64,000 nucleotides of DNA, taken from assembly GCA_902796855.1 (NCBI GenBank), contig CADBQN010000037.1, positions 1 to 64,000 of the forward strand, given 5' to 3'. Shown here in pieces: positions 56,587 to 62,558 of this stretch. Position 1 is the first letter of the stretch. Each line of letters begins with the position of its first letter. The notes under the pieces are model-generated. The model searched no databases. It was not told where the DNA came from and saw only the letters and a program-made list of their open reading frames with translations. The stretch is from an uncultured Bacillota bacterium. Its GTDB lineage: Bacteria; Bacillota; Dehalobacteriia; UBA7702. Made by a program: the position numbers and the translations under genes.

Positions 56587-57972
56587 TCAAATATTATGTT
56601 TTTTCTTTAACTGTATTACGGTACTTTGTGCGATGTCCAATGCTTTTGCCACCTCGTAAGAGGATTTATATTTATGATACGCATTGATCAGTAATTGTTT
56701 TTCCAGTTCGGCTTTAGCTTTTTTCAGCGGGATGATATCGGAGCAGTGCACTGTAGTTTCGGTTTTTGCTTCGGGGGAAATCAGCACGGAAAGTGCTTCT
56801 CCCGTCAGTTCCGTTCCGTCCTCACTTATCCAAAGCCGTTCCAGGATGTGTTCCAATTCACGGATATTACCGGGCCATTCGTAACATAAGAGATGAGATA
56901 ATATATCTGCCCGAAATGTTTTGCGTCCGTTGTATTTTTTGTTATAACGATTCAGGAAAAACAGGGCCAGGAGATAAATATCGTTGCCCCAGGTGCGAAG
57001 AGGCGGTACGGTGATGGGGAAGACATTAAGACGATAATAAAGGTCTTCGCGGAAAGTGCCTTCCTTGCACATGGTTTCCAGGTCGCGGTGGGTCGCCGTA
57101 ACGATACGGGTATTTATGGGGATCTTTTTGTGACCGCCTACTCGGGTGATGGTTTTTTCCTGAATAAAATCAAGGAGCTTCACCTGAACCGAAAGGGGCA
57201 GTTCCCCGATTTCATCCAAAAATAGGGTTCCGTTGTCGGCAAGTTCCACTTTCCCCACTTTGCCACCTTTTGCGGCGCCGGTAAAGGCGCCTTCTTCATA
57301 GCCGAACAGCTCCGACTCAAATAGATTTTCCGGGATCATTCCGCAGTTGATCTTGATAAAAGGGCCGCTGCTGTTTTTGCCGAGTTTATGAACCAGCTTG
57401 GCGATATCGGTTTTTCCTGTGCCTGTTTCGCCTCGGATCAGGATGCTAATATCCAAGGGTGCTACTTTTGATAATTCCGTGATGATATGATCATAAACTT
57501 TGCCGGAAAGGAATATATCATCGGAGTTGATATATTCCTCCTTCATCCGTGAAAGCAATTTGATCTCTTGCTGCAGATGGAGATTCTCACGGATCAAACT
57601 GTTGCTCAATTCGTTTAATTCGGCAGAGTTTTGCGCGGTGGTGATCACATATTCGATTTCACCTTTTTCGTTGAAGATCGGACTGCTGATAGAAACGAGA
57701 TTTTCTCCTCCGCTTGATTTTAAAACCACTTTACATGTTTTTTTCTCTTTCAGCACTTTCAATGTGGCGCTGTCGGAAATGGTGCCGTCGTTAACGATGT
57801 CGCAGACATTTCGTCCGATGATATTTTGATCGGTTCTTCCGGTGAGAAATTTTGAGATGGGATTCATGTAAAGAATGGTACCTTTTTGGTCGGTAACAAA
57901 AATCTCAAAGATACAATTTTCCACCATTTTTTCAAAAAAGTCTGTGGGGAGAGAGTTTTCCGAGTGGTTCAT
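56587..57972 (-). CDS. PAS-containing sigma-54-dependent activator
   Basis: 461 residues. PAS domain (about residues 10-115), then an AAA+ domain with Walker A G-E-T-G-T-G-K-T near residue 182, the sigma-54 contact G-A-F-T-G-A and Walker B L-F-L-D-E-I-G, and a C-terminal Fis/TyrR-like helix-turn-helix (Y-E-V-A-K-A-L-D-I-A-Q-S-T-V). The PAS domain could bind a small ligand such as an amine. It is about as close to the 61620 regulator as a paralogue can be over the AAA+ and HTH parts. ATG at 57972 chosen for spacing to AAAAGG. Confidence 0.9.
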   Translation of the reverse strand: MNHSENSLPTDFFEKMVENCIFEIFVTDQKGTILYMNPISKFLTGRTDQNIIGRNVCDIVNDGTISDSATLKVLKEKKTCKVVLKSSGGENLVSISSPIFNEKGEIEYVITTAQNSAELNELSNSLIRENLHLQQEIKLLSRMKEEYINSDDIFLSGKVYDHIITELSKVAPLDISILIRGETGTGKTDIAKLVHKLGKNSSGPFIKINCGMIPENLFESELFGYEEGAFTGAAKGGKVGKVELADNGTLFLDEIGELPLSVQVKLLDFIQEKTITRVGGHKKIPINTRIVTATHRDLETMCKEGTFREDLYYRLNVFPITVPPLRTWGNDIYLLALFFLNRYNKKYNGRKTFRADILSHLLCYEWPGNIRELEHILERLWISEDGTELTGEALSVLISPEAKTETTVHCSDIIPLKKAKAELEKQLLINAYHKYKSSYEVAKALDIAQSTVIQLKKKHNI

Positions 57973-58046
57973 ATCAATCATCCTTTTCTGGGTCTTATCT
58001 CATTTTTAAGGTCACTGCTTAATATACTTGTTAAATTAATTATATC

Positions 58047-58156: not shown

Positions 58157-59077
58157 TTATTTTGCGACGGCTTCTGGCTGTGTTTTGGCTTTTCTTGCGC
58201 TGCGGAACATGGTGATCGATGTGATGACAAGAACACCGGAAACCATCCATTTAATGGCATCAAGAGGAATCGACGTAATGATAAACAATCCGATGAGAAC
58301 ACCTACTGTGCCGGCCAGGCTGACGGCAATGATTGTTTTGATATCATAGAGAGGTTTGCCGGTTTTCTTATATTCACGAACAAAGCGATAGCTGGCAAAA
58401 GGCTGCATGATCGCGGCGGATCCCATAAAGAGGGGATAAGCTACCAAAGGGCTCAACCCGAGAAGGAATACGGTGGCCATCATAGGGGCATACATCCCGA
58501 TCCCGATTGTCATAAGAGAACCGAGTATGAAAGCCACTACGCCTAGAACAGCCAGTTTCCAGCCAAAGAGACCTGTTGCCTCGCCGCCGCCGGGCATCAA
58601 GCCGAGCTGACGGGCAACAATGATGGCGGCAACGATGATGAGAGCCACTCCCATGGCATACCGAATGGCATTGATATTCAGTTTAGAAACAATGCCTGCA
58701 CCGATAAAACCGCCCAAACCGCAGCAGGCGGCACTGACGATCAAGGTGATCGGAGCTACTTCAATGGTCGTGATGGTCCCCAGATTCATAACGATCAACG
58801 TAAATAAAGTGCAGGTGTTGAGTGTTCCCGGAATGAGATTATCGGGAACGGCTTTGGTAAATTTAAACCATGCGGTTAATGTAGCAAAAGAGCCGATTCC
58901 CATAAAATCAAAGAACTGTGTTACAAGACCCGCAAGGCTCAAGTTGATCCAGCCTTTCTTTTCTTTTAGCGGTTCCCGGAGTTCTTTTTTCTTGAAAACA
59001 TCGGTAAAAAGATAGGCGAGGACTGCGCCGTTAACCAAAACAACAACAGCGAGAAAGATAATTGCTAATGTATCCAT
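58157..59077 (-). CDS. TauE/SafE-family membrane permease
   Basis: 306 residues with about eight membrane segments and a short cytoplasmic loop after the first. G-F-I-G-A-G-I-V near residue 125 and F-I-L-G-S-L-M-T-I-G-I-G near 185 fit the TauE/SafE (DUF81) family, which moves organosulfonates, sulfite and other small anions. It is 232 bases after mtbC with no good promoter of its own, so it may be cotranscribed. Whether it carries a methylamine, another substrate or a product is unknown; it is not one of the usual methylamine permeases. Confidence 0.7.
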   Translation of the reverse strand: MDTLAIIFLAVVVLVNGAVLAYLFTDVFKKKELREPLKEKKGWINLSLAGLVTQFFDFMGIGSFATLTAWFKFTKAVPDNLIPGTLNTCTLFTLIVMNLGTITTIEVAPITLIVSAACCGLGGFIGAGIVSKLNINAIRYAMGVALIIVAAIIVARQLGLMPGGGEATGLFGWKLAVLGVVAFILGSLMTIGIGMYAPMMATVFLLGLSPLVAYPLFMGSAAIMQPFASYRFVREYKKTGKPLYDIKTIIAVSLAGTVGVLIGLFIITSIPLDAIKWMVSGVLVITSITMFRSARKAKTQPEAVAK

Positions 59078-59309: not shown

Positions 59310-59954
59310 TTAGCTTAAAAGTTCCAATGCTTTTTCAACTGCTTCCGCGGCGTCTTCACCGTAGGCGTCGGCACCGATGCGCTTTGCGAAACGTTCGGTG
59401 ACGGGCGCGCCGCCAATCATTGTTTTAAAGCGATCCTTTAATCCTCTTTCTTTGAGGATGTTTTCGAGTTTCTGGCATTCAGCCATGGTGGTGGTCAACA
59501 GAGCGGAAGTACCGATGAGCTGTGCGTCATGTTCCACCGCGGCATCAACGATTTTTTCCGCGGCAACGTCACGGCCGATATCGATCACTTCAATACCCTG
59601 GGTTTTGATAAGGGAAGCAACGATACCTTTACCGATGTCATGTACGTCACCCTGTACAGTAGCAAGGATCATAACGCCCTTCTTTTCCTGAGCGGCGCCG
59701 GATTTTGCCATTTCAGCATTGAGTACATCGGATACTTTCTGCATTACATCAGCGGCGAGCATCAGTTCGGGAAGGAATACGCGGCCTTTACCGAAGAGGT
59801 CACCAACTTCGCGGATACCTGCGGAGAAGCCTTCGGAGAGAACTTCTACCGCGCAACCTTCCGCAATAGCGTTGTTCATCACTTCAAGAGCAACTTTTTC
59901 ATCATATTTGACCATGGAATCGATGGCTTGTTTGATCAATGTTTCTTTGGACAT
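59310..59954 (-). CDS. mtbC: Methylamine corrinoid protein
   Basis: 214 residues. N-terminal helical cap (about residues 1-85) and B12-binding domain with G-D-V-H-D-I-G-K-G near residue 102 (cobalt-ligand histidine), S-A-L-L-T-T-T near 151 and G-G-A-P-V near 179. It carries the methyl group from the amine methyltransferase to the next acceptor. Located 39 bases after mtbB. The family includes MtmC, MtbC and MttC; mtbC is chosen from the neighbour. The usual acceptor enzyme (MtbA type) is not in the window. Confidence 0.92.
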   Translation of the reverse strand: MSKETLIKQAIDSMVKYDEKVALEVMNNAIAEGCAVEVLSEGFSAGIREVGDLFGKGRVFLPELMLAADVMQKVSDVLNAEMAKSGAAQEKKGVMILATVQGDVHDIGKGIVASLIKTQGIEVIDIGRDVAAEKIVDAAVEHDAQLIGTSALLTTTMAECQKLENILKERGLKDRFKTMIGGAPVTERFAKRIGADAYGEDAAEAVEKALELLS

Positions 59955-59993: not shown

Positions 59994-61382
59994 TCAAAGA
60001 AGGCCTGCTTCTTTTTTGAATTTGGTTACACTGTTGATGGGAACGTCAAGAATATCGGCAATGCGGAATTTTGTCTGAATGCCAAGGCCTGCGTCCGGTC
60101 TTACCTGAACCGTACCGATGTTAAGTTCTTCCCTGAGTTCTTTCATTTCGGCACAGTCTGCAAGATAACTTACAGGACAGTTCAATTTATCCGCGACATA
60201 TTTTTTTGCGTCGTCGATTTTATAACCTTGAAGCTGCATACGGAAAACGAGGTCGCCGGCAGTTCTTATGCCGCCCATACCCGCGCATGCTTCATGGGTG
60301 AGACCCTGACCGAAGGTGTCTCCACCGCCTACCTACAATCCGTCAACACCGGCGATTTCGACCAGAGCCTTATCCACACGGGAAACCGCATCGGCAGAAG
60401 GAATGAGGGAAAGCGGGATCGCGCCAACGCCCATGCCTACATTGGCATGAACAGGGATCTTCGCGACTTTTACGGTTTCTTTGGCAAAGGTTACCACACG
60501 GGCAAGATTCCATGCGAGGGATTTGGAGCTGTTGGTATTTACCGCCATACCAAAGATGGATACCCCGGCTCTTTCTGCCATTTTTACCTGCTGATGGGGA
60601 TAAAGGCCGGCAATGATCTCATCGTCAAATTTTAATTCGCCGTGCATACCGATGTTGAATTCACCTGCCATACCGACTTCAAAACCGGTGGTGGGGTATT
60701 TTTCTCGCAGGATGCGAACGGCTTCGAGGGATGCTTTTACATCAGCGTCGCCGGATGCGCCAACGGTATCGAAGTTGATGCCGTCTGCGCCGGACTCGAT
60801 CATGCCCGAGGCAACGTAAACGATATCGCTAATAGCGTGTTCGATTGCTTCTTCCTGAGCTTCCCTTGCTTCTGTGATCTTACCTGCGGGGAGAAGTTCT
60901 GCCCAGTTATCACAAGGACCATCGGGTTTGGTATAGAGCCCCATATTGGGCATCGCACCGTAAAGCAAAGGCAAAGTGGTCAATAATTGAGCCTGTTCCA
61001 TTGCCTGGCGTTCTTCGGCTGCAATGGCTTTTAAGGGTTTGTAACTGTAGTCCACATGGCAAAGTTCAAAACTGTCGGAAGCGAGAGCGCGTTCTTGTGT
61101 AATGATGGCCTGCAGACGATCCATGGGGATACCGTTGCGGATGCTGAGTTTCAAGGTACCCGCGTCATAGGAAAGAACAATCTCTTTTCCCGGTTCCACG
61201 GATACGATCTTTTGGGGGCTAGCAATGATTTCATAGAGATAATCCATTTCATCCTGAGTCATTGCGGGGATCTGAGCGCGTTCTGCCGCGTCCTGAGTAC
61301 CGGCTTCGATATCGGCACGGATCTCGGCTTCGGTCATTTCTGCTACAAAGTTGTCGCCGTAGCGAGTGAGAATTTCAGACAT
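59994..61382 (-). CDS. mtbB: Dimethylamine:corrinoid methyltransferase with in-frame UAG (pyrrolysine)
   Basis: 462 residues if UAG at codon 350 is read. The first 349 residues match MtbB: F-Y/L-Y-G-A-M-P-N-M-G-L-Y near residue 140, G-A-D-G-I-N-F-D-T near 200, G-M-A-G-E near 233 and G-L-Y-P-H-Q-Q near 257. The UAG follows I-A-G-V-D-G-L. The same frame continues V-G-G-G-D-T-F-G-Q-G-L, then G-I-R-T-A-G-D-L-V and R-E-E-L, as in archaeal MtbB after its pyrrolysine. The enzyme moves a methyl group from dimethylamine to MtbC. Start ATG with GGAGG; stop TGA. Confidence 0.95.
60297..60326 (-). promoter_or_regulatory. Hairpin just after the mtbB UAG (PYLIS-like)
   Basis: Starting 7 bases after UAG, GGT-G-GAGAC can pair with GTCTC-ACC (8 bp, one bulge), with an inner ACC-TTC-GGT stem. 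Its place resembles the PYLIS structures described in archaeal mtmB. Known PYLIS effects are modest, so its role here is open. Confidence 0.4.
60333..60335 (-). other. In-frame UAG codon, probable pyrrolysine, mtbB codon 350
   Basis: Plus strand reads CTA at these bases. Both flanks are in one frame and both are MtbB-like. In methanogen MtbB a UAG occupies the matching site after G-V-D-G. Confidence 0.92.
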
Positions 61383-61423
61383 TGAGCATATCCTCCTTCA
61401 TTTTTTCTTTTGATATTATTTAT

Positions 61424-61440
61424 AGCAATTACCGTGCCAA
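61424..61440 (-). promoter_or_regulatory. Sigma-54 (-24/-12) promoter of mtbB
   Basis: Minus strand TTGGCACG-GTAA-TTGCT: TGGCAC at 61439-61434 and TTGC at 61428-61425, matching TGGCAC-N5-TTGC exactly. Transcription would start near 61413, 31 bases before the mtbB ATG. Confidence 0.92.
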
Positions 61441-61619: not shown

Positions 61620-62558
61620 TCATAAATTATGCTTTTTCTTTAGTTTGATCACGGTGCTTTGGTCAATGCCGAGGGCTCGTGCCACCTCATAGGAGGAGTT
61701 GTATTGACTGTATGCTTTGGTAAGCAGCTGTTTCTCGATTTCTGCTTTAGCCTCTTTCAGAGGTACGATCTCGGAGCAGACGATGCTGTTCCCTACTTCC
61801 TCTTTTTTGCTCAGAAGTTTGGTGAGATCGGAACCTGTGATTTCGTTTGTATCTTTATAAATATACAGTCGCTCGATGATATGTTCCATTTCTCGGATGT
61901 TGCCGGGCCAATCGTGTTGTTTCAGAGGTACCACAACATCTTTGCTGAAGGTTTTTGTCTTTTCGTATTTCTTATTATATTGGTAGAGAAAGAATTGAGC
62001 CAAATGGAGAATATCGTCGCCCCAGTTTCGAAGAGGTGGTACGGTGATGGGGAATACATCCAATCGGTAGTAAAGGTCCTGACGGAAGGTTCCTTCTTCG
62101 CTCATGGCGCGGAGGTCTCGGTGGGTTGCTGCCACGATACGGGTATTGATCGGGATCTTTTTGTGACCGCCCACTCGTGTGATGGTTTTTTCCTGGATGA
62201 AATCCAGCAGTTTTACCTGAACGGGGAGGGGGAGTTCACCGATTTCATCGAGGAACAGCGTTCCGCCGTCGGCCATTTCGATTTTCCCTTTTTTCCCGGA
62301 ACGGCTGGCGCCGGTAAAGGATCCGGCCTCATATCCGAAGAATTCCGATTCCAGCAAATGCTCGGGGATCATGGCGCAGTTGATTTTTACCATGGGTTTA
62401 TCGCTGCGGGCGCTGAGCTTATGAATAAGATCGGCGGCAACCTCTTTCCCCGTACCGCTTTCCCCGTCGATCAATACCGTGGCGTCTGTCGGCGCCACTT
62501 TCTCAATATTTCGTTCCGCCTCGCGCATCGCGGGGCATCCTCTTTCCCCGGCAATCAA
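61620..62558 (-). CDS. Sigma-54-dependent activator lacking a sensor domain
   Basis: 312 residues. AAA+ domain with G-E-S-G-T-G-K-E near residue 32, G-S-F-T-G-A-S and L-F-L-D-E-I-G, and a C-terminal helix-turn-helix (Y-E-V-A-R-A-L-G-I-D-Q-S-T-V) nearly the same as in the 56587 regulator. The PAS part of that protein is missing; the frame closes at a stop only 40 bases upstream. The start is uncertain (TTG at 62558, or ATG about 10 codons later). Either a PspF-like stand-alone activator or a 5'-truncated gene at the island edge. Confidence 0.8.
   Translation of the reverse strand: MIAGERGCPAMREAERNIEKVAPTDATVLIDGESGTGKEVAADLIHKLSARSDKPMVKINCAMIPEHLLESEFFGYEAGSFTGASRSGKKGKIEMADGGTLFLDEIGELPLPVQVKLLDFIQEKTITRVGGHKKIPINTRIVAATHRDLRAMSEEGTFRQDLYYRLDVFPITVPPLRNWGDDILHLAQFFLYQYNKKYEKTKTFSKDVVVPLKQHDWPGNIREMEHIIERLYIYKDTNEITGSDLTKLLSKKEEVGNSIVCSEIVPLKEAKAEIEKQLLTKAYSQYNSSYEVARALGIDQSTVIKLKKKHNL

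Follow-up and report, generated by a model that had tools for sequence, protein, structure and literature searches.

An in-frame amber codon, probably read as pyrrolysine, in a dimethylamine methyltransferase gene of an uncultured Dehalobacteriia bacterium

The window analysed here is a stretch of 64,000 nucleotides (C37:1-64000) from a 2.11 Mb draft genome of 84 contigs estimated to be 98.4% complete. It very probably carries a functional bacterial mtbB gene in which an internal UAG is translated as pyrrolysine, the enzyme passing the methyl group of dimethylamine towards acetyl-CoA under sigma-54 control. Pyrrolysine at residue 350, the dimethylamine substrate, the methyl flow and the induction of the gene are what we infer from sequence comparison, and the interpretation offered in an earlier note on this DNA, that the TAG is read as pyrrolysine, is supported. 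Bacterial mtbB genes with a pyrrolysine codon have already been reported from ‘Candidatus Formimonas warabiya’ DCMF (PMC6778437) and from marine Deltaproteobacteria (PMC8318568), so that the gene is one more case of a known type; of greater interest is the pattern at the level of the lineage.

The window mtbB gene and its surroundings

The gene (Table 1) encodes 462 residues and ends in TGA (59996-59994). An intact frame and the family matches bear out the earlier description of an mtbB with TAG at codon 350 and a terminal TGA, to which the strand (minus, 61382 to 59994) has to be added. Read through, the protein matches PF09505 (Dimeth_Pyl) over residues 4-457 with a score far above the cut-off of 25 bits, and exceeds the equivalog cut-off of TIGR02368 (dimeth_PyL, 369 bits). 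Its single in-frame amber codon falls at the conserved DG(L/F)-O-(V/I)GxGD site, the archaeal family being compared via profiles only. Gene calling with translation table 11 reproduced the split anticipated in the earlier note, giving two open reading frames of 349 and 94 residues, the second from an ATG with its first base at 60278. In an AlphaFold2 model (pLDDT 84; weak at about residues 354-363) residue 350 lies on strand 348-352, and Pyl202 of MtmB is also on a barrel strand (PMC9842639). A Foldseek search with the model returned generic TIM barrels only, and a sequence search found no solved MtbB-like protein. The Rfam PYLIS_2 match that begins at the TAG is a putative element and largely reflects conservation of the coding sequence; because of this overlap we did not count it as evidence for pyrrolysine insertion.

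The gene at 59310-59954 encodes a methylamine-type corrinoid protein. Its MtbC label denotes the best match (201 bits, below the curated cut-off of 350); the matches to TIGR02370 and NF041607 (MtbC) both fall under the curated thresholds. The pairing of mtbB with mtbC is seen again at most mtbB loci examined, and homologues of the TauE/SafE-like permease adjoin other mtbB or mttB genes (C44, C53, G001). The activator gene at 61620-62558 (minus strand) encodes no N-terminal sensor domain and is either truncated or PspF-like.

Stop-codon and promoter statistics for this genome come from 685 kb (32%) and a simple, crude codon-usage gene caller. In these 685 kb the pattern TGGCAYN5TTGC occurs at 17 sites, including position 61439 before the window mtbB, and the background of the strict -24/-12 pattern is 0.0035 per 300 nt. 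About 12 of the 17 sites directly precede methyltransferase, corrinoid-protein or BCCT-transporter-like genes, these downstream genes having been identified partly by eye from N-termini and known loci. The 16 other sites lie on C53, C44, C51, C52, C17, C63, C22, C36 and C12 and are concentrated at methylamine and betaine operons; a classical RpoN box is encoded on C12. This distribution points to a predicted sigma-54 regulon mostly devoted to methylamine use. No -24/-12 site was found within 300 nt of pylSc, pylB or pylT, and the pyl genes may therefore lie outside that regulon.

Table 1. Features of the window and of the pyl cassette on contig C5 of the same genome
Feature	Position	Strand	Basis
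Sigma-54 activator with PAS sensor domain	56587..57981	-	PF00158, PF13426
TauE/SafE-like permease, candidate methylamine transporter	58157..59077	-	PF01925
mtbC-like corrinoid protein, 214 aa	59310..59954	-	PF02310/PF02607 B12-binding domains, synteny
mtbB, dimethylamine:corrinoid methyltransferase, via TAG read-through	59994..61382	-	PF09505 605 bits, TIGR02368 482 bits
Rfam PYLIS_2 (mtbB) match, putative element	60236..60335	-	40.3 bits, gathering 36, E 4.9e-7
Internal amber TAG (codon 350) in context VDGL-O-VGGGD, putative pyrrolysine	60333..60335	-	column common to five sister MtbB and relatives
Shine-Dalgarno AGGAGG ahead of mtbB ATG	61392..61397	-	sequence
-24/-12 (sigma-54 type) promoter TGGCACGGTAATTGCT, first base 57 nt upstream of mtbB start codon	61424..61439	-	pattern match
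Sigma-54 activator, AAA+ and HTH only, directly upstream of mtbB promoter	61620..62558	-	PF00158, PF18024
pylSc	C5 7259-8170		320 bits (cut-off 178)
pylD	C5 8259-9071		205 bits, above NCBIfam cut-off
tRNA-Pyl, CUA anticodon	C5 10254-10326		fold, match to relatives' tRNA-Pyl
pylB	C5 10398-11468		458 bits, above NCBIfam cut-off
pylC	C5 11465-12634		371 bits, above NCBIfam cut-off
Methyl-THF:corrinoid methyltransferase-like gene	C5 12718-13530
pylSn	C5 13547-13924		131 bits (cut-off 51)

Pyrrolysine cassette and TAG-bearing methyltransferases

The earlier note had held that the absence of pylS and pylT from the genome would speak against pyrrolysine, and had proposed a search for pylT, pylSn/pylSc and pylBCD; all are present on contig C5, where, together with a methyl-THF:corrinoid methyltransferase-like gene, they lie within 6.7 kb. 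The tRNA-Pyl resembles that of relatives, with a 7-bp acceptor stem, a 6-bp anticodon stem, one base between the acceptor and D stems, a 4-nt D loop, a CTCTAAA anticodon loop, a 3-nt variable region and an encoded CCA. The cassette and the window mtbB are on different contigs of the draft genome, and the combination is repeated in three relatives. RF1 is kept (above cut-off), and the second release factor is RF2-like. The closest named pylSc, 90% identical, belongs to the MAG RUG11176, in which we take ‘RUG’ to stand for rumen uncultured genome. Between pylD and pylT a stretch (cgctccatcggtttcaccgattctaagccttgatcgtctcc...) occurs in two near-identical copies (L003:9100-9520, L003 being contig C5), and a T-box leader (RF00230, 108.8 bits) is found on contig C2 (L004:7326-7546, minus strand).

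In the predicted scheme PylB, PylC and PylD make pyrrolysine from lysine, the split synthetase PylSc+PylSn loads it onto tRNA-Pyl(CUA), and this tRNA reads the UAG at codon 350. The pyrrolysine, on its TIM-barrel strand, would activate dimethylamine, and the methyl group would pass to the corrinoid bound by MtbC, the product of the adjacent gene, from there to tetrahydrofolate by a methyl-THF:corrinoid methyltransferase-like enzyme such as the one encoded within the pyl cluster, and from methyl-THF to acetyl-CoA via acetyl-CoA synthase; the pyrrolysine chemistry is that of Methanosarcina MtmB and MttB (PMC9842639). The route from dimethylamine through MtbB(Pyl), MtbC and methyl-THF to acetyl-CoA is likely because the genome contains an acetyl-CoA synthase gene (CdhC/AcsB, acsB). 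Within the class AcsAB is confined to Dehalobacteriales and UBA7702 (PMC10327494), and since the window genome belongs to a different order from DCMF, UBA7702 is its likely order. Transcription of mtbB would start at the sigma-54 promoter under the flanking activator, which is probably methylamine-responsive.

The sixteen Pyl METHYLTRANSFERASES of the genome comprise six MtbB and ten MttB, each with one TAG at the Pyl site of its family, which in the six MtbB is one common alignment column. A codon-usage search of the 685 kb for TAG-ended reading frames running on into coding sequence recovered exactly these 16 genes as TAG-interrupted, which argues against chance, and found no Pyl proteins other than MtbB and MttB in the sequence scanned. 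Three further long coding-like continuations past a TAG, all on C19 (one starting MSFIELFL...), were set aside and appear to be neighbouring genes that share the frame. All 16 genes are truncated at the TAG by standard annotation, and the methylamine metabolism of the lineage is thus easily overlooked.

The same genome encodes eight MttB-superfamily proteins and one MtmB-family protein that are free of TAG. The MtmB-family protein (G000:C44:12667-14034, plus strand; L031:1540-2877; 212-223 bits to PF05369) has a tryptophan aligned to Pyl202 of Methanosarcina barkeri MtmB, its gene has a corrinoid protein gene and a methyl-THF methyltransferase-like gene as neighbours, and it may have a role akin to that of MtqB, an MtmB homologue without Pyl (PMC13044021).

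Conservation of the amber site and alternative readings

Among 43 genomes of the class, MtbB and PylSn occur in the identical eight, and all four sampled genomes of the window genome's order are positive. The 23 MtbB genes of the class that cover the site have a TAG there without exception, one each. Between the window mtbB and the copy on C53 (81% identical), dN/dS is 0.071 before the TAG and 0.078 after it, rough values given synonymous sites near saturation; purifying selection is equal on either side of the TAG. Five residues downstream of the TAG and ahead of the following ATG (G352, G354, D355, G358 and H363) are invariant in 15 proteins. A sequencing error or nonsense pseudogene, to which the draft state of the assembly lends some colour, was rejected on the site conservation and dN/dS and has a negligible probability: the TAG recurs in the genome's remaining MtbB genes and in seven other genomes, and there is no decay downstream of it. 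The earlier note, too, had called a sequencing error unlikely. A truncated 349-residue product may be made too, because RF1 is retained. That the UAG is a leaky stop and this fragment the main product, with or without reinitiation at the ATG at 60278, would accord with the presence of RF1, with the roughly 4% of genes that still end in TAG and with the two frames given by table-11 callers, but is very unlikely given that the stretch from the TAG to the following ATG holds some of the most conserved codons of the family, that selection is alike on both sides and that every class copy covering the site retains the TAG. Reinitiation as the source of the sole product was rejected on the invariant residues between TAG and ATG.

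That some other suppressor tRNA inserts a standard amino acid at the UAG is highly improbable: the tRNA scan covered about a third of the genome, which leaves this reading some room, but the 685 kb scanned contain no CUA tRNA other than tRNA-Pyl, read-through TAG codons are not spread across other genes, and MtbB is found only alongside pyl genes. The more substantial doubt concerns the substrate. The mutual identity of the six MtbB, 53-81% and mostly 53-60%, suggests that not all of them use dimethylamine. It is conceivable, if on the whole unlikely, that the TAG encodes pyrrolysine but that the natural substrate of the window paralogue is another methylated amine, the six copies having diverged in specificity or regulation. 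Several of them stand in separate operons with sigma-54 promoters of their own, and non-Pyl relatives of MttB and MtmB have known or suspected changes of substrate (PMC13044021, PMC9768040). Dimethylamine is nevertheless favoured by the score of the window copy, far above the dimethylamine equivalog cut-off, and by the pairing of most MtbB copies with MtbC-like genes.

Relation to known systems and amber scarcity in the order

The window gene resembles Methanosarcina mtbB in its full-length PF09505 and TIGR02368 matches, its single in-frame amber codon and the adjacent corrinoid protein gene, and differs in its bacterial host, split synthetase and sigma-54 promoter; no coenzyme M route is expected in this host, the methyl group presumably going to tetrahydrofolate and acetyl-CoA instead. 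DCMF and Dehalobacterium formicoaceticum belong to the same GTDB class and share with the window genome an mtbB with TAG and split pylSc/pylSn (PMC6778437, PMC9768040). For DCMF, 23 Pyl methyltransferases have been reported (PMC6778437, PMC9768040), and Pyl-MttB proteins were detected in its proteome (PMC9768040). These two organisms, however, represent another order and have genomes of 6.4 and 3.8 Mb, in which TAG serves as an ordinary stop codon (21% and 14% in samples). The window genome packs its 16 Pyl genes into 2.1 Mb and seldom uses TAG as a stop. Further bacterial Pyl kits that serve a trimethylamine methyltransferase are those of Bilophila wadsworthia (PMC7593587), which unlike the window genome lacks mtbB, and of Acetohalobium arabaticum, whose cassette is reported to be induced by TMA (as cited in PMC9723677). 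The statement in the earlier note that bacterial users of pyrrolysine are few is dated, more than 200 split-type (PylSn+PylSc) sequences having been catalogued (PMC11363022). The main text of a 2023 comparative genomic study of the class contains 0 occurrences of pyrrolysine or methylamine (PMC10327494). Here a small-genome Bacillota lineage, apparently rumen-associated, invests heavily in Pyl methyltransferases. Should the closest genome, the RUG MAG, be a guide to habitat, the lineage would rival methylotrophic methanogens for rumen methylamines, turning them into acetate instead of methane.

In the order of the window genome 35 of 793 genes (4.4%) terminate in TAG once the Pyl codons are removed (21 of 544 in the genome itself), compared with 40 of 207 (19.3%) among relatives in the other, Pyl-positive family (f2) and 55 of 325 (16.9%) in Pyl-negative members of the class, a sample that excludes G031, G009 and G008 (Fisher p 6.7e-11 and 4.6e-11, respectively, for a comparison in which genes are non-independent, the order is one lineage and GC differs). 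The ratio TAG/(TAG+TGA), which partly controls for GC, is 0.08 in the order vs 0.42-0.44 in class relatives. Contigs of the genome without methyltransferase genes have 3.3% TAG terminators, G003 of the same order has 9.7% in a small sample, and Emergencia-like Pyl bacteria have 16%. Archaeal users of pyrrolysine hold UAG low (<6%) whereas Pyl bacteria do not (PMC9723677, PMC3941956), and the ordinary amber frequency of about 20% described for the latter (PMC3941956, PMC9723677) is not encountered in this order, which seems to avoid TAG outside Pyl genes and in this is unusual for a bacterium.

We tentatively propose, as a serious possibility rather than the favoured conclusion, that the order is partway through a reassignment of UAG from stop to pyrrolysine, as in methanogenic archaea, with amber terminators largely purged genome-wide and RF1 kept. 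Frequent availability of charged tRNA-Pyl could have made amber terminators costly and so driven such a purge. If true, this partial reassignment would be the first bacterial case in the literature consulted, and would contradict the view that bacteria handle pyrrolysine through regulation alone; in the scarcity of amber stops there is a bacterial parallel, open to test, to the archaeal way of coping with an ambiguous UAG. One mttB gene (G000:C51:14192-15670, plus strand) uses TAG both as its Pyl codon and as its terminator, where read-through would add about 30 residues up to a TAA, with another TAG within.
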